Origin: a virus
Strand: one strand, 5' to 3'
Length of the DNA stretch: 64,000 bases
IMG/VR virus record: IMGVR_UViG_3300047472_000155
Span: 1-64,000 of that record
Part shown: positions 4,823 to 57,494 of the stretch, piece after piece
How the letters are laid out: each line of letters begins with the position of its first letter
Numbering within the stretch: the stretch's first letter is position 1
Notes under the pieces: model-generated
What the model was told of the DNA's origin: nothing
Database searches by the model: none
The model's input: only the letters and a program-made list of their open reading frames with translations
Translations under genes and position numbers: made by a program

Positions 4823-7800
4823 TTATCCCTTCCAACCAAGCTTCTTTAATCCATTTACCAATCTAGTAGTAACTAAGTCAGCACCTTTTTCATCTCCCGT
4901 TACACTACCAATATTGATGTTAATGTTGCTTCCACCACTATTAGTAACCACAGAAGGAGAAATTGATGAAACAAGTTTTCCCATGTTTGGCATGAATTTG
5001 TTTTGAATGTTTGTAGAAGGAGACATTAACTCATCTTGCAAAGCTAATATCACTTGTTCGTTTGCATCAGTATTCATCATCTGATCCATAAGTTTAGTTA
5101 ATTTATTTCCACCTCCACCAACAACACCACCTTTATGAAGAACTTGAAGACCGCTCTTATCATACCAATGACCATCAGCTTTTTTAGACAATCCAATACT
5201 TGGACCCAACTTTTCGTTTAAGGCAACAAGTTCTTTTTGTCTAGCGGCAGTTGCAGTATGCCATTCTGCTGCGTTTGCTTTCATTTGTGCTACAACAGAA
5301 GCATAGCTTGACGATGTAGTTGTTGAACCGCTTGTAGAAGTAGTAGTACCTCCATACAACGCGTTTCCACTTGAATCAAGCCAAACACCAGCGCTTGTTT
5401 TTGTAGCTCCTATACTTGAACCAAGAGCTTCATTAGCGGCTTCAAGATTTTTCTTTTCTTCCGCAGTTGCACTAGCCCATTTTGCAGAGTTTGCTTGCAT
5501 TTCTGTAATAATATCTGATTCGCTTCTAATGAGTTTAAGGTTTTCAACTACCTTTTGAAGTTGAGTTGTAACATTATCATATATTGATTGACCAACAAGC
5601 GGAAGATTTGCATCAAACCATCCTTTTAAAGTTCCAAGTTCGCTTGAAATTCCTTGAATGTTGCCTTTCTCAATTTCTGCTTTAAGGTTAGACCAATGAG
5701 TTTCATCATCTGCAATGTCTTTGAAGTATTTGTTAGCACTATCTTTATAATCTTCAATGATGTCTTTCATATCATCGTAAGATTTCCCAGTTATAGTTAC
5801 CATTTGTTGAGATGTAGCATCCCAAAGTTCAACACTCATTGTCCAAGCTTCTTTATCCGCTTCTGCTTTTTCTTCTAAATAAGTTTTTTGATCTTCTAAA
5901 TCTTGTTTTTGAGCATCGGTAGAATGGTCATCTTGAAGTTTAGCAATTTCCTTGTCCGCAGCATCTCTTTGTTCGATAAGGTCTTTGAGTTGAGCCTTGC
6001 CCTCTTTGGAATCATCTAAAGATAAACGATTGATTTTATCTTGTAACTCTTGACGACTTTGCGTCTTTGTGTTCAAGCTATCTTGATATTCAGCTTCTGA
6101 CTTGTCAAATTCAAGTTGTTTGATCTTGCTTTCAATTATCTTTTGATCTGCCTTAAGCTTTTCATCAATTCTATCCATTTCTTTTTCATGAGCTTTTTCA
6201 AGTGCATCATCTTGTTCATCAATCGCATCAATGATTGCATCCTTTTGTTTCTCATACATATCCTTAAGAAGTTCGATGGCATTGTCTGCAATATTGTCAT
6301 TGAAATCTTTTAATGCATCATTGGATTGTTTAATAGCAGCTTCAATATCCCACCATTCAAGTTTCAATGCAGCAAGTTTTTGATTGTATTCTTCAACTTT
6401 TTCAATACTCAATTTGTGACTCTTTTCATTGTCTTTGAGAATTTTACGAATTGCTACAGCCTCTTCTTCCTTTTGTTTTTGAAGAGTTTCGTTTATTTTA
6501 ATTTGTTTTATCAACTCAGCTCTATACTCTTTTGATTCTTCATCATAAGTACTCAATCTTGCAGATGATAATGCCAATTCAGCGTTTGTGCTTTCTATTC
6601 CCTTTTCATACTTATATAACGAATTATCAGCTAAATCTCCATTTAATGCATCTATTTGATCTTGCACATCTCTATATGATTGACTAAGTTCTAACGTTTT
6701 TTGAGTCAAGTCATCTGACTGAATCCCCGAATTTCTAAGATATTCAGCCTCTTCGTGCATAAGTTTTTGTTTAACTTTTAACTGCATAATTTGTTCATTT
6801 GTTTCTTTGGCATTTTTAGCAGTGTAATTAGCAGAATTTGGATCAAGTCTTGCTGCTCTATATTGAGATTGGCTTATGGCTTCATCTTTGTTTGCCAACT
6901 GATTTTCATATTGTGCCATATAACTATCAACAACGTTTCTAGCGCTAGTGAATAGTGCACTATCAACCTCAACTAATTGATCCTCAACTGATTTCTTCGC
7001 ACTATCAATGTCCTTTGAGGAAGGAGCATTTACAACTGTCGTTGTAGTACCTGTTGTTGTGGAACCTGTTTTTGTACTTGCTGAACTACTTGTAGCGTTT
7101 CCTCCTTGAGCATAACCAATAACTTTTGGAACATAGTTAAGAGTTTCGCTTTTAAAGATGTTGTCTCCAACACCACGGTTTAATTTTGCCGTATCAGCTT
7201 TTGCATTTTTTAATACGTCCCAATCTTTGCTTCCTGTAGTCTTCATAGCCCAATCGACATAACCAGGACCAGCATTATATGCCGCTAAAGCAAGATCATA
7301 AGAACCGTATTTATCATACAATTGACTAAGATATTTTGCTCCACCGTTTGCTGATTGTTGAGGATCATAAACATTTGATACACCTAATCCCTTAGCGGTT
7401 CCTGGCATTAATTGCATCAATCCTGCGGCTCCCGCACCACTCTTAGCATTAGGATTATAACTTGACTCAGCCCATGCAACAGCGTCTAATATAGATGTGT
7501 CAACACCGTTATTTGCCGCCGCTTCACTTATAATCTTTTTAATGTCTCCAGTAGACTTAGCACCAGTTCCTCCAGTATAATTTGTACTAGCAAAAGTACT
7601 TCCTCCAGATGTTGTCGTTGTTGTTGCTGCAACTAATTTGGATGGATCAGCCTTTGCTTCAAGAAGCAATGTTTTCTTTTTCTCTAAAAGTTTTACTTCT
7701 TCTGCTACCGAAGCTCTATATTCTTTAGAAGATTTAGCGTATTTACTTTGTTGTGCATGTACCTTGTCAAGAGCAGCATCAACATCATTGATAGCTCTTT

Positions 7801-10800
7801 GGAGAGCAGTTATGGATTCTGTCGTATCATCAGCATCTTTTCCAACATTCTCTAATGCTTCTGCTCCAAGTTCTGCCTGAGTTTTTAAATCGTCAAGGAC
7901 TTGAACAAAATCTTTAAGATTCTTGCCATCTTCTTGAAGACTCTCAACAAGATCGCCTTCGCCCATTTGACGAGCTAAATAAATCATTTGTGCTGTTTTA
8001 ATGTTGATAGTATCGAGAGCAGCACCTACATCATTTATAGCATTTACTTCTATGCCATAAGCGGTCAATTTTGCAACCAATGCAGAGTTTTGATTTAAAA
8101 CACTTTGCCATTGTGCAGTACCTTCATCTTTTACAGCTTGAATCATGGTATCACGTTTTTTTACAATAGCTTGTGTGTTTAATTTAACAACACCATTTTC
8201 AATTTTGAATAAACTAATAAGAGATGCATCTTTAGCAATCAAGTCCATAACTGCATCAGCACTTATTTGTTTGCCATTTGCATTATCTTCTAAAAATCCA
8301 TTAAGCGTTGAAACAGTATCGGAAGTATCACTGTAACTATCATTCAAAGCCTTTAATGCTGTAGCGAATGATTCAAGGTTTGTTCCAGAGTCTGCAAGTT
8401 CATCGTTTAATGCGGCAAATAGAGGTGTTCCACCTTCTACAGCTTCAACAATTCTTCTAATTGCATCAGTTCCTAAATTCAACGTTTTTCCATATGAGTT
8501 ATAAACAGCATCTTGTTTCTCTACTGTTGTCATATTTTTAACTTGTGCACTATTGAGGTCTTCTATCATAGATTCGAAAACTTGGAAGTTTTTAGTATTA
8601 AATTCTACGCCATTGTCAAAAAAGAATGATTTCAATTCCTCAGTAGAATGAATTCCAACTTTTTCAAGACTATCCAAAGATTTTTCCAGAAAAGAAACTT
8701 GACTGTCGAAATCTGCAAAGTCCATTTGACCAATAACATTTGTAAGAGACTCAGCGAACGCACGTTGTTCGTTTGTTACAGTTTTTCCTGCTTCTTGGAG
8801 TCTTTCAGTATATTCATTTTTGATAGCATTAATTCTATCAGCAGTAAGTGCATCTAATTCTGTTTTACTCTTTTCAAGCTCAGTTTCTACTGCAACTTTA
8901 GCTTTATTTATTTCTTCAATATCAGTTTTAATTTCTACTGCTTTTGTCTCGCCAAATGAAGTTGGTACATTTACTACTCTCGTGTTTGTTTTTCCGTCTA
9001 AATAGTCTTGTTCTTGTTTTTGTAAATCCAACAATGCCTTTTGATTTTCTTCATATGCTTTTGCCTTATTTTCTATTTTTTCAGACTTATCTGTATATGT
9101 AGAAATTACCTTAGATTTATTAAGGTCATTTTGAATCTTAATCAAATCACTAAGTATATCTATTCTATCCTGAATAGCATCTTGGCTGTTTACATATGCA
9201 TTACCCTCTGCGTCAACTCCGGTAGCAGTAACTCCATAATTTTTAACAAGTTCATTCTGAATTTCAAGCAATCTATTTTTTTGTTCGATTGATTTATCTT
9301 CAGTAGCCATAAGCGTATTGTATTCATCGTTTAATGCCTCAATGCCACTTTTTTGTTCCTTGTAAGAGTCTCTAAGAGTGTAATTTACAGTCTTAAGTTC
9401 TTTTATTTTTTCATTATGTTTTTGAACTGCCTCAGTTATCTTTTGAATAACAAGACCTACCGCCATTAATGCTAACATTGGACCTATTGTAGCCAGCGCT
9501 ATGCCAAGACCTTTTGCAGAAACCTTTAAAACATTCATAGCTCCAGCAGTTGTTTTCATTCCAAGTGCAGCCTCTTTAAGTCTAAGTGCAAGGAATTGTG
9601 TTTCATATGAAACCTTTTTGAATAATGCTACACTAGGGATGAAAGATGCATACATTCTTCTTGCGGCACCACTTAATATAAGTGCAGCAGTTGTAGCTAC
9701 ACCAATGACAACGGGGAATATTCCAATAGTTTTTACGACAGCATTTACAGCAGTTCCTAATGTTGTCAATGCATCAATAAGACTTCTTATTCCATTTGAA
9801 TCAAATGAAGACTGGAATATTTCATTCCAAGCATTTTTCATTCTTGTTAAATGGGCTTCTGTTCCTTCTTGATATCTATTGAATTTCTCTTGTGCTATAC
9901 CAGCAGAATCAAGAGATGCTTCATATAACTTAACAGAATCTGGATATCCTTCCATGATGTTTAAAAAACGTGATTGCTGATATGAACCAGCAACAGTTGT
10001 TGCAATGTACGCTTGTTGTCTATTACTTAATGTAGTCCATTTAGCACCTAGTTCGTCCATTACTGTACCAAAGTTACGGAATTCACCTTGTGAATCAACA
10101 AGTTGTATTCCAACCTTTGCCAATGCTTTTGCTACTTGGTTTACTTGTGTTCCATCTTCTTGATCAAACCCATTTTCTTTCAAAGATTGCACACGTGCCA
10201 TGATTGACTTAACTGAGCTACCAATTGTCTCAGCACTTTCACGTGTTCTTGATGAAATTGTCGCAATCCATGAAGAAACCTTTTCAAACTCAAGTCCAAT
10301 TGCTCCAGCAGTACCACCAACTTTTTGCATTGCACGACCAATTTCATCGGCACCAGTAGCTGTTGCATCACCCATGTATGAGTAAATATCCGCAGCATGT
10401 TCAGCACTTACACCCATTGAGTTTACCGTAGCTGTAAGAATTTGAGCTGATTGTATGAAATCTAAATTTGAAATTTTGGCATAAATGGTAGCAGTTTTCA
10501 TTTTATCCATCATTTCTGCACCCTTTAAGCCTTGACGAGCAAATTCAACTGCTCCATTTGCAATTTCTTCTGTAGAAACGCTCATTTGCATTCCAAGATC
10601 ATAGAATTGTTTAGCGTATTTTTCTACATCAGATTGACTCTCATTGAATACGATAGAAAGCTGCGTTAATGCCTTATTGAATTCGTTTACATATGCTACT
10701 CCATTTGTGAAGAAGTGTAACGATTGATAGAATGCGGTCATACCAATCATCCACACTGGTATTCTTGACATAGCCGTTTTCAATTGATCCATAAAGCTCA

Positions 10801-12425: not shown

Positions 12426-12454
12426 ATTATACCATTTTATCTGTCATTTGTCAA
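12426..12454 (-). promoter_or_regulatory. Conserved-spacer promoter
   Basis: TTGACA-17-TATAAT on the minus strand, with the same spacer pattern (AATGACAGATAAAATGG) as the promoters in the tRNA region. It begins two bases after the recombinase stop codon. The expected leader contains ATTGTTAA...TTAACAAT. Confidence 0.85.
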
Positions 12455-36059: not shown

Positions 36060-36091
36060 AAAATGTAGTCTTTCGACTACTAAAATTCATT

Positions 36092-36661
36092 TTATCTTAC
36101 ATTTGCATAACTTATAAAGTTTCTAATTTTTGAAATTGTAGTAGTACCAACACCATACTCTTTTGCCAAAGATATTCCTGTTTTCATTGAATTTCTGATG
36201 TATCTAATATCTTCTTCTGAGAACATTTTATTATGATCAGCGTCACTTTTTCTTTCTAATGATTGATAATCTATATCAGACAATATATGTTTCCATTTTT
36301 TGCCACTCCAAATATTCTTTATAGTACCTCTATCTACTCCAAATATTTTTGAAAGCTCTGTTGGAGAATTTGTAGTATTCATTCTTATACTTATTACACT
36401 TTCTTCGTCAAGCTTCGATCTTCCATTATTTATACCAATTGCACTTCTTCCTCTAGAAACTCTATCCATAACATTGTCTTGATGTGTACCAGTTTCTAGA
36501 TGATTTGGATTAATGCAGAATGAATTGTCGCACTTGTGACGAATTACAAGACCATCTTCTATCTTGTTGCCACTAAATAATTCATATATATACCTATGCA
36601 TTATTAATTGGACACCATTTCTCTCTACTTTGTAACCATGTCTCTTTTTTGCATGAGACAC
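36092..36661 (-). CDS. HNH homing endonuclease
   Basis: About 189 residues from GTG 36661. HRYIYELFSGN then VIRHKCDNSFCINPNHLETGTHQDNVMD is the HNH core (His, Asn, His plus zinc cysteines) of free-standing homing endonucleases. The C-terminal part has two helix-turn-helix-like segments (LSKIFGVDRGTIKNIWSGKKW, LAKEYGVGTTTISKIRN) for DNA binding. Upstream in the same frame, protein-like text with a further cysteine pair (IEYEVENECWVC) has no start codon before a stop. The real 5' end may therefore be frameshifted (see findings). It sits between tRNA-Leu genes, a usual target. Confidence 0.8.
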   Translation of the reverse strand: MSHAKKRHGYKVERNGVQLIMHRYIYELFSGNKIEDGLVIRHKCDNSFCINPNHLETGTHQDNVMDRVSRGRSAIGINNGRSKLDEESVISIRMNTTNSPTELSKIFGVDRGTIKNIWSGKKWKHILSDIDYQSLERKSDADHNKMFSEEDIRYIRNSMKTGISLAKEYGVGTTTISKIRNFISYANVR

Positions 36662-39168: not shown

Positions 39169-39182
39169 CCCTCATGTTCTTT

Positions 39183-45072: not shown

Positions 45073-46194
45073 ATGTCTATTGCTGTTATTGGTTTAGGTG
45101 GAGCTGGAGGGAATATTGCAAATGAAGCATCCAAGTTAGATATTGTGGCAGGGGCTATCAATTTTTCAAACAAAGACTTGGACTCCATTGATGTTAAGTA
45201 CAAACTAAAGGTCATGGGTTCAGAAGGAGTTGGACATGATAGAAATATGGCTATTAGACTTATGCATGAACATCATCCAATGGTTGTAAAGTTTATTGAA
45301 GACAATTTCTCAGATCCTTCTATTGAAATTATATTCTTACCATTCGCTTCTAGCGGAGGTAGTGGCTCAGGAATTGCTCCAATGTTGGCAGATATATTAT
45401 CTTGCAAAATGCCAGATAAAGTGATTGTTCCATTGCCAATAATTCCGGAAAAATCAGAACCTCTTATATCTCAGATCAATTCCTATAATTCTTTAATTGA
45501 ACTTTCTAGTCTTAACCTTTGCATATTGCCTATTGACAATAATGAAGTCAAATTGCATCATAATGCTTTCAAAAATCAAATCTTCGAAATTGCAAACAAG
45601 ACATCTATCTCATTGTTGGTCAAATTAATGTCATATACTGAAAAGGCATCTAGAAATGGAAACTTTGACAATAGAGACTTGATTTCCGTATTTTCTCAAA
45701 AAGGAATGGCTACAATAGCGGAAGTTGATATTACCTCCCTTCCCAAAGCAAACGTAACGTCTAAAGGTATATCAGAATCAATTTTTGATTCGTGGGAAAA
45801 ATCTATATTTGCTCCCATTGAATACACTCATGTTTCGAAATGTGCATTCATATTCGATGGTCAAGAATCTCTCATTGAACACATTAACTACAAGGAGATA
45901 TTCTCAAAATTTAATCATGGATTACCTATTGATATTTTTGAAGGATACTATGAAGAAAACAATGGAAAAATACTTACCGTTTTAACAGGACTTCCTTGGT
46001 GTGCATCTAGAATGAACTCTATTGACTCACTTATCGAAAACGATACAAGTAAGGCAGAAACTATCATAAAAACAATGGAAAGTGATCAATTTGTTCCAAA
46101 AATCTTCGATTTTGACCAAAAAATACGACAAAATTCTCAAAAAATAGCAAAAAATGTTGCAGTTACGGATATTTTAAGTAAATATGTGCGATAA
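45073..46194 (+). CDS. tubZ: TubZ-like tubulin/FtsZ-family GTPase
   Basis: 373 residues. The tubulin-family nucleotide loops are visible: GLGGAGGNIANEA (T1), INFSNKDLDSID (T3-like region) and SSGGSGSGIAPMLAD (T4 signature GGxGxG). The C-terminal tail (FDQKIRQNSQKIAKNVAV, ILSKYVR) is basic, as in TubZ where it binds TubR on DNA. It should polymerise with GTP and move phage DNA or the plasmid prophage. AGGTTAAT-type spacing; AGGAGG follows for the next gene. PhuZ-type DNA-centring filament is the alternative, but the adjacent TubR-like gene favours partition. Confidence 0.88.
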   Translation: MSIAVIGLGGAGGNIANEASKLDIVAGAINFSNKDLDSIDVKYKLKVMGSEGVGHDRNMAIRLMHEHHPMVVKFIEDNFSDPSIEIIFLPFASSGGSGSGIAPMLADILSCKMPDKVIVPLPIIPEKSEPLISQINSYNSLIELSSLNLCILPIDNNEVKLHHNAFKNQIFEIANKTSISLLVKLMSYTEKASRNGNFDNRDLISVFSQKGMATIAEVDITSLPKANVTSKGISESIFDSWEKSIFAPIEYTHVSKCAFIFDGQESLIEHINYKEIFSKFNHGLPIDIFEGYYEENNGKILTVLTGLPWCASRMNSIDSLIENDTSKAETIIKTMESDQFVPKIFDFDQKIRQNSQKIAKNVAVTDILSKYVR

Positions 46195-47341: not shown

Positions 47342-48436
47342 ATGGGTAAAGCATTGCTTGATAATATAGTGATTTTGAATGAACGTAATAAGGGTAAAAA
47401 AGAATTTAAAAACGTAGGTAAAGATATATATAACTTTCTTTACCGCATCAACATTGGACATGGAACAGAACTTCAAGGCACATCAGAAGCTTACGAAAGA
47501 GATATCAAACGTTTCTTTCAATTGATGTGGGGCATTAAAGATTTGAATAAACTTGAAATTGAAGATTTGTATATCCTTCCATCAGATATAGAAAAATTTC
47601 AGACATATCTTGTTAATATGGGATTTAAAAGCAATACCGTAGATCGCAATATTAATGCAGTAAGATCGTTGTATAATTATTTTGAAGAAAATGAGTATCG
47701 TTATAGATATGAAGATGAATGGGTATATATTTCTTCGAGAGTATTTAAAGGTATTAAAAGAGTTGATATTGACGATAAGTCAAGTTATGGATCATTTACT
47801 TTCGAGGAAATGTCCGAAATGATTGAACTTGCAAAAACTCTTGACAATGGAGAAACTAAGTCATTGGCTATTGAATTGGCAAGTATCACTTCCTTTCGCC
47901 TTGAAGCTATTGCAAATATGGAAAGAGGTGATTTTTTCTTCAAAAACAACACATGGGTTGCACGTACTTATGACAAAGGAAAAGAGAATATAAAAGCTAT
48001 TCGTACAGATTTATATGAAAGACTTATTGCTAATGCCGATGAAGGTGACAGAGAAAAACTATTTGATTGCACATCAAGAACATTGCAGCGTACAGTTGAT
48101 ACTTTAATCAATATGATGAAACTTGATAAAGCTGAAAGAAATCTTACCTTCCACTCCATCAAGAAATACGGTATCAATGAAGTTGCTATGATGACAAAAG
48201 GTGATATGAAAGCTATTTCACTTCAAGGTAATCATGCATCATTTGAAACTACTATGAAGTATTACCTTGCATACACGGAAGACTATTCTAAAATGCCTTG
48301 CTTAATGATTGGTCAACCAATTGATACATCTCCCATTCAAGAGCTAGATAGAGAGCAGTTGTTAAATCTATTCATGGAGGCTAGTCGGTCCACTCAATAC
48401 GAATTGCTCCACTTGTTGAATACGCAATCCGAATAA
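47342..48436 (+). CDS. Tyrosine recombinase (second integrase)
   Basis: 364 residues. An N-terminal core-binding domain (TSEAYERDIKRFFQLMWG, SNTVDRNINAVRSLYNYF) precedes the catalytic domain: Arg in ITSFRLEAIANM, Lys in YDKGKENIKA, HSIKK in place of the usual HxxR, His in QGNHASFETTMKYY with the nucleophile Tyr in that segment. The HxxK variant recalls YomM-type phage recombinases. Its own operator-controlled promoter, a terminator after it, and a 31-bp inverted repeat 45 bases downstream suggest an integrase or resolvase with a nearby site. Confidence 0.88.
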   Translation: MGKALLDNIVILNERNKGKKEFKNVGKDIYNFLYRINIGHGTELQGTSEAYERDIKRFFQLMWGIKDLNKLEIEDLYILPSDIEKFQTYLVNMGFKSNTVDRNINAVRSLYNYFEENEYRYRYEDEWVYISSRVFKGIKRVDIDDKSSYGSFTFEEMSEMIELAKTLDNGETKSLAIELASITSFRLEAIANMERGDFFFKNNTWVARTYDKGKENIKAIRTDLYERLIANADEGDREKLFDCTSRTLQRTVDTLINMMKLDKAERNLTFHSIKKYGINEVAMMTKGDMKAISLQGNHASFETTMKYYLAYTEDYSKMPCLMIGQPIDTSPIQELDREQLLNLFMEASRSTQYELLHLLNTQSE

Positions 48437-49818: not shown

Positions 49819-49867
49819 TTACTAGCAAGACAGTGAATTGATTTTAAAGGGTGAGATGCCTTCACAT

Positions 49868-50782
49868 ATGAAGAGGATGTTTTTAATAATGAATAATAAA
49901 GTAAGTGTAGATGTTAAAAATAATTATAATGTTCAAACACCGTTGTCAAATGTATTGGCAAGTGTATTCTCTTACAATGACAATCATACCGTCAGAACTT
50001 TAATGATTGACAATGAACCGTGGTTTGTTGCAAAAGATGTGTGTGATATCTTAGAAATATCGAAATATCGTGACGCATTAAGTAGATTGGATGATGATGA
50101 AAGGGGGTCGGTATTAGTGGATACCCCTGGAGGAAAGCAAGAAATGGGCGCTGTTAATGAATCTGGATTATATTCGATTATCATGAAGAGTCGAAAACCA
50201 GAAGCTAAGGTATTTAAAAAATGGATTACACATGAGGTTATACCTTCTATTCGAAAAAGTGGAAAATATGATGTAGTAAATACCATTCAGGATTCATACA
50301 TGATTCAAAATCCAGTTGAACGGGCTAAGGCGTGGATTGTAGAACAGGAAAAACTTCAATTAGCAGAATTACAAGTTAAAGAATTGGAGATTGTAGTAGT
50401 AAAAAAAGATGAAGTAATTTTAGAGAAAGATGAAATGATTCAAGAATTAGAACCAGATGCCATATATGCAAGAGACATGTTGATTGGGAATGGTCTTTCA
50501 TTAGCAACTGACATAGCAAAGATTTATGGAATGAGTTCTCATAAATTTAATAAATTACTTAATACACTCAACGTGCAATACAAACTAAAAGGTTCTAATC
50601 ATTGGTTGTTATATAGTAAATACGATGGGCTTGGCTACACTCATTTAAAAAGTACTAGGATAGAAACAAAATATGACTCCAAGACTAGTTACACTATGAT
50701 GTGGACTGAAAAAGGGAAAAGGTTCCTTTATGATTTATTATCTGAATTAAATATTTATCCAGATATTGTAAGTGTAAAATAA
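49868..50782 (+). CDS. BRO/KilAC antirepressor
   Basis: 304 residues from ATG 49868; ATG 49889 is an alternative, with AGAGG between the two. A Bro-N domain (VRTLMIDNEPWFVAKDVCDILEISKYRDALSRLDDDE ... GGKQEMGAVNESGLYSIIMKSRKPEAKVFKKWITHEVIPSIRKSGKY) is joined through a coiled coil to a KilAC/ANT domain (SLATDIAKIYGMSSHKFNKLLNTLNV ... YTMMWTEKGKRFLYDLL). Such proteins counteract phage repressors and mark temperate phages. Confidence 0.93.
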   Translation: MKRMFLIMNNKVSVDVKNNYNVQTPLSNVLASVFSYNDNHTVRTLMIDNEPWFVAKDVCDILEISKYRDALSRLDDDERGSVLVDTPGGKQEMGAVNESGLYSIIMKSRKPEAKVFKKWITHEVIPSIRKSGKYDVVNTIQDSYMIQNPVERAKAWIVEQEKLQLAELQVKELEIVVVKKDEVILEKDEMIQELEPDAIYARDMLIGNGLSLATDIAKIYGMSSHKFNKLLNTLNVQYKLKGSNHWLLYSKYDGLGYTHLKSTRIETKYDSKTSYTMMWTEKGKRFLYDLLSELNIYPDIVSVK

Positions 50783-52478: not shown

Positions 52479-52508
52479 AAGCGCTGGAATTATCCAGCGC
52501 TTCTTTTT
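52479..52508. terminator. Bidirectional intrinsic terminator
   Basis: AAGCGCTGG (52479-52487), loop, CCAGCGCTT (52494-52502), then CTTTTT on the plus strand and CTTTTAAT on the minus strand. Separates converging genes. Confidence 0.88.
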
Positions 52509-53041
52509 ATATCTACCTCTACATTTCCAGTTGAAGATACAGTATGAGTTACTTCCTTTACTTCATCCTCTGCAAACATCTTTCGCGCTTTCTCCATTAC
52601 CTTTAAAATGTACGTGTAACTCTCTTCTAACTCTTTACGCTCATTTGCCATGTCACGCATGATTCGTGATTGTTCTGTCAATCTCTTGTCTTGATCAATT
52701 ACTTTTTGATGTAACGTTTTATTTTGCTTTTGTAAATTTTTTAGAAGATCAACAAATCCATCCATTGTTTCTCTTACTTTATTGGCAAGTGTGAAAGATG
52801 TGTTAGATGTATATGCTTCTAATGTAGACTCATCTAGTCCGGTTTCACTTTCCGACATTAAATGTTTGTACCATCGGTTACGACACATATAGAATGTGAT
52901 GCCTAATTCGTTTGCCGCTTCTTTAAATGCTCTTGTTGCACTATTAGGATACTTGGTAACAAGCCTTCTCAGAACCGAATCTTCCTCATCTGTCCAATCG
53001 TGATTAGCACTTTTTTTCTTTATTTCCACAGAAGAGATCAC
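52490..53041 (-). CDS. SANT/Myb-like DNA-binding coiled-coil protein (RsfA-type)
   Basis: 183 residues. HDWTDEEDSVLRRLVTKYPNSATRAFKEAANELGITFYMCRNRWYKHL is a SANT/Myb-type helix-turn-helix like that of the RsfA prespore regulators in Bacilli. Residues ~90-160 are a coiled coil (LKNLQKQNKTLHQKVIDQDKRLTEQSRIMRDM), probably for dimerisation. It is likely a transcriptional regulator, placed at the edge of the gene desert. The family is inferred from this pattern. Confidence 0.75.
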   Translation of the reverse strand: MISSVEIKKKSANHDWTDEEDSVLRRLVTKYPNSATRAFKEAANELGITFYMCRNRWYKHLMSESETGLDESTLEAYTSNTSFTLANKVRETMDGFVDLLKNLQKQNKTLHQKVIDQDKRLTEQSRIMRDMANERKELEESYTYILKVMEKARKMFAEDEVKEVTHTVSSTGNVEVDIKRSAG

Positions 53042-54310: not shown

Positions 54311-54419
54311 TTGTATGATCTAGGATGTAAGCGTTTAATTTTAAGGTATAAGGCGTATATCATCAATACCTAACAATACCATTACCCTATAGGATAGAGT
54401 GTCTTATACGCAATCCTAC

Positions 54420-54780
54420 CATGACATATATTATGTATATTCTTACAATATAATACATATGATATACTCACTATGATATTATGTATATGTATATATCTAT
54501 ATGTATATATCTATGTGTTAATATCATATTGATAGTAATGATATGATACATACAACATGTATCTATCTATGTGATACTATCTATATGATAATATGTATGT
54601 GTATGTATCTATATGTTACTATCTACATATACATATCATATTGTTATTATCATAATGTTAGTATCTATGTGGATATATGACGATACTTGCAACATGCGAG
54701 CAATATGATATCGACCTAGCATATAGCAACGTGATATATATAGTACATACATATGAGCACTCACACATATAAGATAAAGT
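54420..54780. repeat. Degenerate tandem TATCTATATG-type repeats
   Basis: Variants of TATCTATRTG joined by TTAATATCAT/GTATGTGTATG words fill about 250 bp. They resemble a decayed microsatellite or an AT-rich unwinding region. Confidence 0.6.
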
Positions 54781-54871
54781 CAATAGGGAACATATATACC
54801 CATCTATATGCGTTACAATGCATTGTAATGGGCAAGTTGTTTACTCATTGTTTATACATTGATTTAAAACG

Positions 54872-55990
54872 ATAGAAAGCGCTTACTTGGGAAATAGTGC
54901 ACACCTACGCCATTTGCAAACGCTTACATATTAGAAATGGACAATTATTTCCCAAAACGCATGTATAAGTATTCATTATTAGTGTATATGAAAGCGGTTA
55001 AATGCATGATTATGCATAGAAGCATACGAATGTATGATAAAATGAGGATAAAGTGCTAATATATCAATTGATCTAAATAATGGATAAGTTTTTAATTTTC
55101 AATCTAATATTGATATATGTTTGACTTATTGCTGACTGAAAGTGCTTACATACATAAAATGTAAAATATGTATGTAATTAATATGAAAACGCTTACATTT
55201 TCGGATCGCAAGATATGTAAATAAATATATAAATTACTATAAAATGTATATTTTTATTATTTAAAAAAGTCAAGTAGTAAATTGATAATTATGTGAACAT
55301 TATGTGAACATGCAATTAATCAATTGGTATAATCATTGAGATATTCCGTATAGAGTAAATACACACAATTGATCCATAGAGGGTATTAGGGTTCCGTATT
55401 TTCAATTCCACGGCACAAGTAGTGTACTTGTTAGGGGTAGAATATAAAGCCTCTTAGAAGGGCAAATAAAGCGCTTACATTTGACATACATTTATGTGTG
55501 TTAAAGTGTAGTCAAATAGCAAAATGTATAAATATACATGATATACGTTGCGTTATTGATCCGCAATAATTACCGAACATTCAAAAAAGCCTTATGTATC
55601 AACGATCTGATTCGCTAACTTTCTGATAGCTTACATAATAAATCTGATTTATCGCACATATAAAAATTTTCTATTCCCTTATAGAATAAGGGTTTTAGGA
55701 CTTATGTAAAAATATGTTTATGCATACCCGAATATAATTGTGTCTAAAATATGTACGTTTATTCATTTAAATTTTAAAAACCTATTGACATTTAAAAATC
55801 ATTTGATCTAGCATTTGCAAAACACGAACATTCTGACCAACAGTGGCATAGTTTATGAGCTAAATCCGAACATTCGAGTATATAAAGCGCTTACAATAAA
55901 ATATCCTAAAAATATACGAACATAAATTCGTATATTGACATCTGAAATAATATGTGATTTTAATTAAAATGAAAGCGTTTTATTGACAAT
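54872..55990. repeat. Dispersed CGCTTACA and CGAACAT repeats
   Basis: AAAGCGCTTACA-like words occur near 54876, 54918, 55137, 55185, 55468, 55883 and 55972. CGAACATTC-like words occur near 55568, 55823 and 55867, with related CGAACA at 55917 and 56006 and GTGAACAT twice near 55292-55307. Spacing is irregular. Many TTGACA hexamers are interspersed. They read as protein-binding sites of an origin or control region. Confidence 0.6.
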
Positions 55991-56056
55991 ATATGTAAAA
56001 AACATACGAACAAATGGGAACAAATTGTGAATATTGTGTGTCATATCTTTATGCAC

Positions 56057-56086
56057 TTGACATGCAATCCTACTATGAAATAGTAT
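56057..56086 (+). promoter_or_regulatory. Promoter before the 56.1-kb RNA candidate
   Basis: TTGACA (56057-56062), an 18-bp spacer and TAGTAT (56081-56086). Confidence 0.6.
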
Positions 56087-56700
56087 GGAGAAGCAAACAA
56101 GACAAAACACACCTAGAGCACGAATGAGTGACCGACATTAATAGGTCGCACACGAACGGACACAATGACGGATAAGCTACCGACACACGAATAAGCCTAG
56201 CTACTAGAATTTTAGTAACTAACTTATGGTAAGTGTTAGATAAAATGAGGGTGAATAGGTTGAACACGTTATGCAATGCTAACACGCCTATGAACTATGG
56301 CGAATGACCATAGAAGAAAGGGAATGGTGAGAAGCCCAAAGCGGCATGTATGCACGAAAGGTCATTCGATATGATAACCTAGACGCTCATACATTGATTG
56401 CATTTAATATCATTGGTTCCTTGACAATCTAACGGTTTATCGCATACCTAGACTACGCCGAAAGGCAATGTCAAAAGCGATACATTGTGTGAGGTCTATG
56501 TGCCTAGTAGTGTATAGGGTTAAGGGCAACAAAATGACGAAAGGTTAGTCAATGGTACGTGCATTATGAGCGTACATGATACACATGTAAGGCATTGCGT
56601 ACATGTGTATGGCATAAACTAATTTAGTAACGTTTTGGATACCATGAGAGTAATACATGAAGGACAATGCCATGGATAGCGTACTATCGTTAACTCACAA
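56087..56700 (+). ncRNA. Candidate large structured RNA (~600 nt) with pseudoknot
   Basis: Less AT-rich than its surroundings and without genes. Helices seen: GACC/GGTC (56129-56146); ACAC-ATAAG-TACTA with TAGTA-CTTAT-GTGT (about 56183-56236); CGAATGACC (56301-56309) with GGTCATTCG (56360-56368); TAGACGCTC with GAGGTCTA (56379-56388, 56491-56498); TTGACA (56421-56426) with TGTCAA (56469-56474) crossed by TATCGC (56438-56443) with GCGATA (56477-56482), around a GCC-GAAA-GGC hairpin (56457-56466); GTACG/CGTAC near 56555. GNRA-type loops and the crossing helices favour a folded RNA. Family unknown. Confidence 0.6.
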
Positions 56701-56715
56701 TGTAAAAGGAATAAT

Positions 56716-56801
56716 CGTTGTTCAAGATAGTGCGAAATTCGTAGTATCTTGAACAACGTTGTAAGCAACTAATATAATGTAAGTTAGTTGTTTACAACGT
56801 T
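56716..56801 (+). promoter_or_regulatory. Promoter embedded in two tandem inverted repeats
   Basis: CGTTGTTCAAGATA (56716-56729) is repeated inverted at 56745-56758. AACGTTGTAAGCAACTAA (56755-56772) is repeated inverted at 56784-56801 with one mismatch. TTGAAC (56749-56754), an 18-bp spacer and TATAAT (56773-56778) sit across both. It should be tightly regulated and drives the early-type operon. Confidence 0.75.
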
Positions 56802-56837
56802 GTACATACAACGAATAAAAACATTGGAGTGATTGAA

Positions 56838-57494
56838 ATGCATTTGCCACAACTTAAAGTGTTAGACCGTAAAACGATTATCAATGTACCAATTCTATGC
56901 GGCACAAAAGAATTTGACCAATATTCGGAAATTAACTCTCTTACGGCATCGGGTGAAACGTTTAAAAGTACTAGTTCAACATCAAGCAAATATAATCTTG
57001 CTTCGGTACACGCTTGGGTCAATATTGACCAATTACAAGCCGATGGAATTATTACTAAATTAGGTTTCGGAAGATGGGAAACCGAATTGTCGGAAAAGAA
57101 CGGTATACATTACACAATGAAAATTGATGAAACCGGAGAGGGAAAATATGTAAAAGGTAAGATCACTTACAATATTGTAGCGGTTGAAGTTAATGGTAAA
57201 AAATACACCGTCAAAAACGATCACAAATTGCCAAATGGCACGGAAATGCAAACAAGTTTCGAAATGACTTATAATGGTAAAAGTGCTAAAAATTCCACAT
57301 TGTTCGGATTCTTGCGCCGCATTATCTACAATGGATTACTTCAATTTGACAAGGTTGATCATCTTGAATTGATGGTAGCTAAACCTAAAACACCATCAAA
57401 ACCTAAAGCCAAACCTAAAGCGGCAAGCGTAGATATTCCAAAAGGCAAGGGTGCGGACAAACAAGAGAGTGCACAAAAAGCCGCAAATGAATGA
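56838..57494 (+). CDS. First gene of the early-type operon, unknown function
   Basis: 218 residues from ATG 56838, eight bases after GGAG; GTG 56829 overlaps that site. The core is beta-rich (GFGRWETELSEKNGIHYTMKIDETGEGKYVKGKITYNIVAVEVNGKKYTV), with FGFLRRIIYNGLLQFDKVDHLEL following. The tail is Lys/Pro-rich and disordered (KPKTPSKPKAKPKAAS). A basic tail and beta core suit a nucleic-acid binder, but no family is recognised. Its doubly palindromic promoter and own terminator point to high, controlled expression. Confidence 0.75.
   Translation: MHLPQLKVLDRKTIINVPILCGTKEFDQYSEINSLTASGETFKSTSSTSSKYNLASVHAWVNIDQLQADGIITKLGFGRWETELSEKNGIHYTMKIDETGEGKYVKGKITYNIVAVEVNGKKYTVKNDHKLPNGTEMQTSFEMTYNGKSAKNSTLFGFLRRIIYNGLLQFDKVDHLELMVAKPKTPSKPKAKPKAASVDIPKGKGADKQESAQKAANE

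Follow-up and report, generated by a model that had tools for sequence, protein, structure and literature searches.

A candidate large structured RNA of a new family upstream of a phage operon

Introduction

The question raised by this locus is whether a gene-free stretch of about 600 nucleotides in a phage genome, lying ahead of a rightward operon, specifies a large structured RNA and, if so, to what kind such an RNA would belong and how it might act. The DNA analysed, here called the window, comprises 64,000 nucleotides and covers bases 1–64000 of a virus record that is 166,838 bases long. Large structured RNAs of phages are so far few in number, and a new family that is linked to an operon adds a tractable case. 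We consider it very probable that the stretch is a real structured RNA, and most likely that it is a large non-coding RNA which the phage encodes and which represents a new family. The evidence for this rests on two sequences, the window and a 170,562-bp phage contig (L003), whose divergence from the window shows which helices count and lets self-assembly and a role in infection be asked about. The features are collected in Table 1.

The element and its setting

An AT-rich desert extends between a Myb-like gene (52490–53041, minus strand) and the rightward run of small uncharacterised genes. An earlier note, made from the sequence, had picked out within it a stretch that was less AT-rich and contained no genes, and both observations are borne out: the GC content is 0.400 at 56001–56400 and 0.372 at 56401–56800, against 0.26–0.29 from 54401 to 56000, and between 56090 and 56715 there is no plus-strand open reading frame of at least 40 amino acids, only unsupported minus-strand frames. 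Nor was a protein-coding match found for the stretch; such a match had been named beforehand as telling against an RNA. The predicted body, on the plus strand, is about 620 nt long, with its 3' end placed near 56715. The perfect helices that had been described are present (CGAATGACC at 56301 with GGTCATTCG at 56368, and ACGCTCATA at 56383 with TATGAGCGT at 56573), as are a GCC-GAAA-GGC hairpin (56457–56466) and two pairings that cross, TTGACA (56421) with TGTCAA (56474) and TATCGC (56438) with GCGATA (56482). The stability of the single sequence is only mildly unusual (641 nt, z −2.12, with one of 20 shuffles equally stable).

Table 1. Positions of the RNA, its parts and its neighbours in the window
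Feature	Position	Strand	Details
Putative RNA promoter	56057–56086	+	TTGACA-18-TAGTAT; L003 equivalent TTTGCA-18-TAATAT, by eye
Structured RNA body	56092–56715	+	No plus-strand ORF, no Rfam match; structure shared with L003 7215–7866; ends inferred
Hairpin 1	56128–56149	+	GTGACC/GGTCGC; L003 CAACC/GGTTG
Helix P2	56185–56236	+	ACAC/GTGT, then ATAAG/CTTAT, then TAG/CTA; L003 CACAC/GTGTG, ATAAGT/ACTTAT, AGC/GCT
Orphan promoter spacer in RNA core	56232–56248	+	No −35 or −10; weight-matrix (PWM) score 20.5, against maxima of 11.1–16.0 in 5 random sequences
Hairpin P3	56268–56283	+	GTTA/TAAC; L003 TTAG/CTAA; invariant tip GCAATGC at 56273–56279
Helix P4	56302–56367	+	GAATGACC/GGTCATTC; L003 TGGGACT/AGTCTCA; least certain correspondence
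Helix P5	56438–56482	+	TATCGC/GCGATA; L003 TATGCC/GGCATA, two compensatory pairs
3' domain	56481–56704	+	Best-supported part (z 9.23, 0/40 shuffles, over 56424–56722); independent folds match
Apical hairpin, 11 bp	56579–56610	+	Invariant tip GCATTGC at 56592–56598, complementary to GCAATGC at 56273–56279
Two nearly perfect inverted repeats	56716–56806	+	Carry CAACGTTGT palindromes; enclose promoter-like TTGAAC-18-TATAAT (56749–56778)
First downstream gene	56838–57494	+	218 aa, uncharacterised; 61%-identical relative in L003 only
Second orphan spacer	55029–55045	+	About 1.2 kb upstream; PWM score 19.8; conserved in L003 at 6229

A single homologue

The sole homologue of the RNA that we found lies at positions 7215–7866 of L003, upstream of a protein that is 61% identical to the product of the first downstream gene. 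By blastn the two RNAs align only in pieces, at 84% over query bases 792–888 (the terminal repeats) and 67% over 41–299. Searched with blastn, neither 50,697 phage records nor 72,556 plasmid records gave a match for the RNA; a pattern scan of genomes gave none either, and in viral pattern scans only the L003 match was real; a pattern match in another contig, L030, lies inside a coding gene and was set aside as chance. We also searched 45 records, made up of 37 of the best 80 of 181 portal relatives together with eight others that include L003's own record, using the protein alignment, the L003 DNA and a model of the RNA (R1). L003's record was again the only real match, and we took R1 matches at E 0.15 to 0.92 and DNA matches at E 0.017 to 0.1 to be noise. 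Four named phages yielded no RNA homologue by nhmmer and motif search. The downstream protein was found in L003 only in the viral collection, and neither in the genomes nor in the named phages, so that, in the collections searched, the two phages with the RNA are also the two with the first downstream gene, and neither feature occurs apart from the other. The predicted structure of this 218-residue protein has a mean pLDDT of 36.8. The portal protein shares 45% identity with its counterpart in Alicyclobacillus phage KKP_3916, roughly 41% with those of Bacillus phages FADO and PJN02, and roughly 32% with those of Staphylococcus phages named SPbeta-like.

Is the fold conserved?

The two copies were compared with a purpose-written program for simultaneous alignment and folding, in which the gain in structure is judged against shuffles of the alignment columns that preserve gaps and local conservation. 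The scores reported include a stacking term; when that term was left out, co-folding yielded scattered single pairs. For the full length the gain is 126.3; the 40 shuffles average 59.9 ± 12.0 and do not exceed 83.9, and the reverse complement reaches 79.7. The 3' part (56424–56722) gives 95.2 against 30.1 ± 7.1, a score reached by none of 40 shuffles, and its reverse strand z 1.65 (30 shuffles). The 5' part (56090–56423) gives 48.0 against 25.6 ± 9.3 (z 2.42, 0/40 shuffles), with its reverse strand above it at z 3.56 (30 shuffles); over the 5' core with a wider band the forward strand has z 2.15 (1/28 shuffles as high) and the reverse z 1.69 (2/28). On these values the signal of the 3' domain is clear, and that of the 5' domain cannot be told from its own reverse strand. 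Two pieces of the desert gave z 0.48 and −0.56, and two coding pieces 4.96 and 0.18 (30 shuffles each); because one coding control reached 4.96, neither this test nor the comparison of folds described below is infallible.

For the alignment-free test the two sequences were folded separately and their minimum-energy structures compared by tree edit distance. The distance for the 3' domain is 140, against 217.1 ± 27.2 and with none of 200 shuffles as close; for the 5' domain it is 210, against 260.1 ± 20.6 and with one of 200 as close. In the controls, shuffles were as close in 121 of 200 cases for the 3' reverse strand, 95 of 200 for the 5' reverse strand and five of 200 for coding DNA. Both strands are equal in identity, and the strand difference in fold agreement is thus not explained by sequence similarity. 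RNAalifold on a plain MAFFT alignment gave z −2.88 for the 3' domain (1/100), −1.65 for its reverse strand, −1.21 for the 5' domain and −2.29 for one desert piece. A coarse shape distance gave no signal for the 3' domain (108/200 shuffles as close), and two-sided changes in the full-length pair number 48, against 49.0 ± 10.1 in shuffles, counts that by themselves are no evidence. Alone, the 3' domain of the window is mildly stable (z −1.74; reverse strand −3.13) and that of L003 strongly so (z −5.55, 0/200 shuffles).

The earlier claim of a large conserved structured RNA is supported, clearly so for the 3' half, where the helices are kept in the homologue; loss of the helices in homologues had been named beforehand as telling against an RNA. 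Conservation of the 5' helices is less firmly shown. A neutral intergenic stretch might fold in this way by chance, and the mild single-sequence stability and the coding control with z 4.96 could be cited for that reading. It has to contend with the absence of comparable 3' scores in 40 and 200 shuffles and with the asymmetry of the strands. We regard it as improbable for the element as a whole; it is largely refuted for the 3' domain, although not for every 5' helix.

Anatomy of the two domains

Despite strong divergence, the 3' domains of the window and of L003, when folded by themselves, take up very similar architectures, and the same fold with different letters in a distant phage suggests that the fold matters. 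The comparison shows the domain as a long branched rod, closed at its base by a helix and kept in the diverged relative although the letters have changed. Besides the closing helix there are helices of 7 bp (56494/56677), 7 bp (56530/56637) and 8 bp (56542/56625). The closing helix is TACAT/ATGTA plus TGTGAG/CTCACA in the window and TACATTGTATGA/TCATACAATGTA in L003; for the rod helices the corresponding pairs are GTCTATG/CATGGAT and ATTTAATC/GATTAAAT, CAAAATG/CGTTTTG and ATGAGGTAA/TTGCCTTAT, and AGGTTAGT/ACTAATTT and TTTCTAGT/ACTAGGAA. Two apical hairpins stand side by side at the top, the second with an invariant tip. A small hairpin (56678–56691) beside the closing helix has AGCG/CGTT in the window and AGCGT/ACGTT in L003, which has extra hairpins (7605–7625 and 7780–7803) where the window has paired rod segments.

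The 5' domain would consist of separate hairpins and is less firmly shown. Four hairpins or helices (hairpin 1 and P2 to P4) have counterparts in L003, matched by eye from two lists of folds. P2 has a competitor, GTGTTAG/CTAACAC (TGTGAG/CTCACA in L003), which is the pairing used in model R1. Of the crossing pair, TATCGC/GCGATA is kept in L003 and TTGACA/TGTCAA has no counterpart in its shorter loop, so that the pseudoknot is not conserved; the GAAA-capped hairpin is likewise absent from L003, whose loop there is shorter.

The tips GCAAUGC and GCAUUGC, one in each domain, are invariant in both sequences and mutually complementary, and are a candidate kissing contact. In 2000 column shuffles at least one long-range pair of invariant complementary 7-mers arose in 6.6% and two in 0.15%; the real pair has two, the tips and the closing helix. 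The tip pair alone, expected about once in 15, is only suggestive. If formed, it might tie together the two domains, or copies of the RNA.

Transcription and mode of action

The RNA would be transcribed rightward from about 56092. The earlier note had placed a promoter before it, and a consensus match is indeed there (Table 1); such matches are no commoner between 53000 and 58500 than in shuffles (45 against 42.0 ± 5.6), so that the match alone means little. The position at the head of a rightward operon suggests early expression. We infer that the folded RNA works in trans, as a scaffold or an oligomer, as has been proposed for ROOL and GOLLD, and put the probability that the RNA is real and also acts in this way at about one half. 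It is counted in favour of this reading that the promoter-like site at 56749–56778 could serve the operon without the RNA.

Action in trans is judged most likely and an operon leader next. The RNA might be a very large 5' leader that acts in cis at the head of an early operon transcript, where it would control elongation, processing or translation. It lies directly upstream of the operon and on the same strand, both it and the first gene are present in the same two phages, neither being found without the other, and no intrinsic terminator separates it from the operon on the plus strand before 58361, as would be expected of a leader. Set against this are the distance of about 120 nt from the RNA 3' end to the start codon, the second promoter-like site that lies between them, and a size that, to our knowledge, would far exceed that of known cis elements. 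We hold the leader to be a possible explanation but the less probable of the two.

Both strands of the two inverted repeats that follow the RNA have high scores (z −9.84 and −5.89), so that these repeats may serve as operators in the DNA in addition to forming hairpins in the RNA; the region may hold an operator and a promoter for the downstream operon. Their CAACGTTGT palindrome occurs five times in the window, counting both strands, against 0.37 expected. Matches to mir-type Rfam models at 56731–56819 fall below gathering scores and reflect these repeats.

The neighbouring desert

A degenerate AT-rich array with a period of 14 nt (54457–54668, 15.1 copies by TRF) lies upstream, and the corresponding desert of L003 has an array with a 15-nt period (5327–5453). 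It is perhaps an origin or a centromere-like site, given that the phage has a tubulin-like gene (45073–46191; Tubulin/FtsZ family, Pfam PF00091, E 1.2e-12, with a weak PHROG match to PhuZ). Nine palindromes like TGWAARCGYTWWCA are clustered in the 1.7 kb upstream of the RNA (54326–55983), with similar copies in L003; the whole window has 47, both strands counted, against 16 ± 5 expected. They resemble CcpA cre sites.

On such grounds the locus might instead yield a replication-origin transcript (a preprimer) or be a control region at the level of DNA, the RNA being incidental or serving to prime replication. The periodic array, the clustered palindromes and the flanking inverted repeats would fit, but not the strand-specific conserved fold of the 3' domain, nor the upstream desert, where neither control piece gave a co-folding signal; we think this explanation unlikely.

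A phage-wide promoter and its orphan spacers

A second R1 match in L003's record (E 0.0016) lies on a gene end and a promoter, and it led to a promoter motif. At up to three mismatches to one query, a 29-bp promoter of the form TTGACAARTGNNAGATAAAATGRTATAAT has nine copies in this phage and 16 in that of L003, and its reversed control none. With a sharper consensus the promoter, TTGACAAATGAAAGATAAAATGRTATAAT, in which the spacer is nearly fully specified, has nine occurrences in the window and none expected; these are on the minus strand, at 12426, 28182, 29370, 31369, 39039, 39183, 41865, 42107 and 44537. Further copies lie elsewhere in the genome and in the phage of L003.

Spacers without a promoter occur at 36103, 41309, 49456, 55029 and 56232, the last within the RNA core; the L003 counterparts of those at 55029 and 56232 have a PWM score of 17.3 each. 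The spacer at 36103 is followed by a GAAA-capped hairpin and a short T run (36063–36103), directly upstream of tRNA-Leu. SPBRE is the operator of the SPbeta repressor MrpR and is repeated at many intergenic places (PMC10516654). By analogy, the simplest reading is that the spacers flanking the RNA promoter are probably a DNA operator for a phage regulator. Such an operator at 56232–56248 could explain some of the extreme conservation seen in the 5' core; the 3' domain is untouched by this. A protein resembling tyrosine recombinases, in which HxxK, identified by eye, replaces the usual HxxR, is encoded at 47342–48433; it had no solved relative by sequence and might, like MrpR, be a repressor. 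An antirepressor-like gene, for a protein with BRO-N and KilAC domains, is at 49838–50779.

A more elaborate proposal is that the RNA belongs to a new class that self-assembles through its complementary tips, and that the 17-nt promoter spacer in one of its invariant stretches lets it help to control the phage promoters: it would either pair with promoter DNA that has been opened or titrate a factor that reads the spacer. Both parts together seem improbable.

Relation to known RNAs and elements

The suggestion that the RNA may be new agrees with the Rfam scans, which gave only tRNAs for the window at gathering thresholds and nothing credible over 55950–56850 at permissive ones. Neither ROOL (RF03087) nor GOLLD (RF02032) matched in these scans or in dedicated scans with their covariance models; the controls of the dedicated scans were silent, and the negative also rests on the Rfam scans. 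The nearest tRNA of the window ends at 39171, 17 kb from the RNA, so that there is no adjoining tRNA island; ROOL is often near such islands, although this is not a strict criterion. ROOL is a homo-oligomeric nanocage, and expression of GOLLD rises during phage lysis. Of the proposed likeness to the ROOL and GOLLD class, size, complexity and phage origin stand and suggest a similar way of working; membership is not supported, and since the models do not match we do not file the RNA under either name. That it is a highly diverged ROOL or GOLLD missed by Rfam, as its phage origin, length, branched fold and complementary tips might suggest, is very unlikely in view of the silence of the models at permissive thresholds.

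The comparison with these RNAs is nevertheless instructive. ROOL and GOLLD are described as large ornate phage RNAs that form homo-oligomers, and their functions, like that of OLE, as poorly understood (PMC12286853). Like ROOL, the present RNA is phage-encoded, about 600 nt long and elaborately folded, and its complementary tips may be compared with the conserved loop contact between ROOL copies (PMC12286853); it differs in lacking a model match, in lying far from tRNAs and in heading a gene operon. GOLLD is likewise a large phage RNA in which the 3' region is conserved and the 5' region less so (PMC12286853), whereas the RNA here is shorter, has no match to the GOLLD model and is not near tRNAs. 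For RNA of this phage group itself our literature search found no paper. The lnc001 and lnc002 RNAs of phage K are also large and intergenic and belong to a phage of Gram-positive bacteria, and lnc001 is transcribed from its own early promoter (PMC9241854); they come from a different phage group and are likened by description, not by sequence. SPBRE, finally, is a repeated intergenic element of a related phage (PMC10516654), and the promoter spacer, here a candidate operator, could work likewise; the likeness is again one of description, not of letters.
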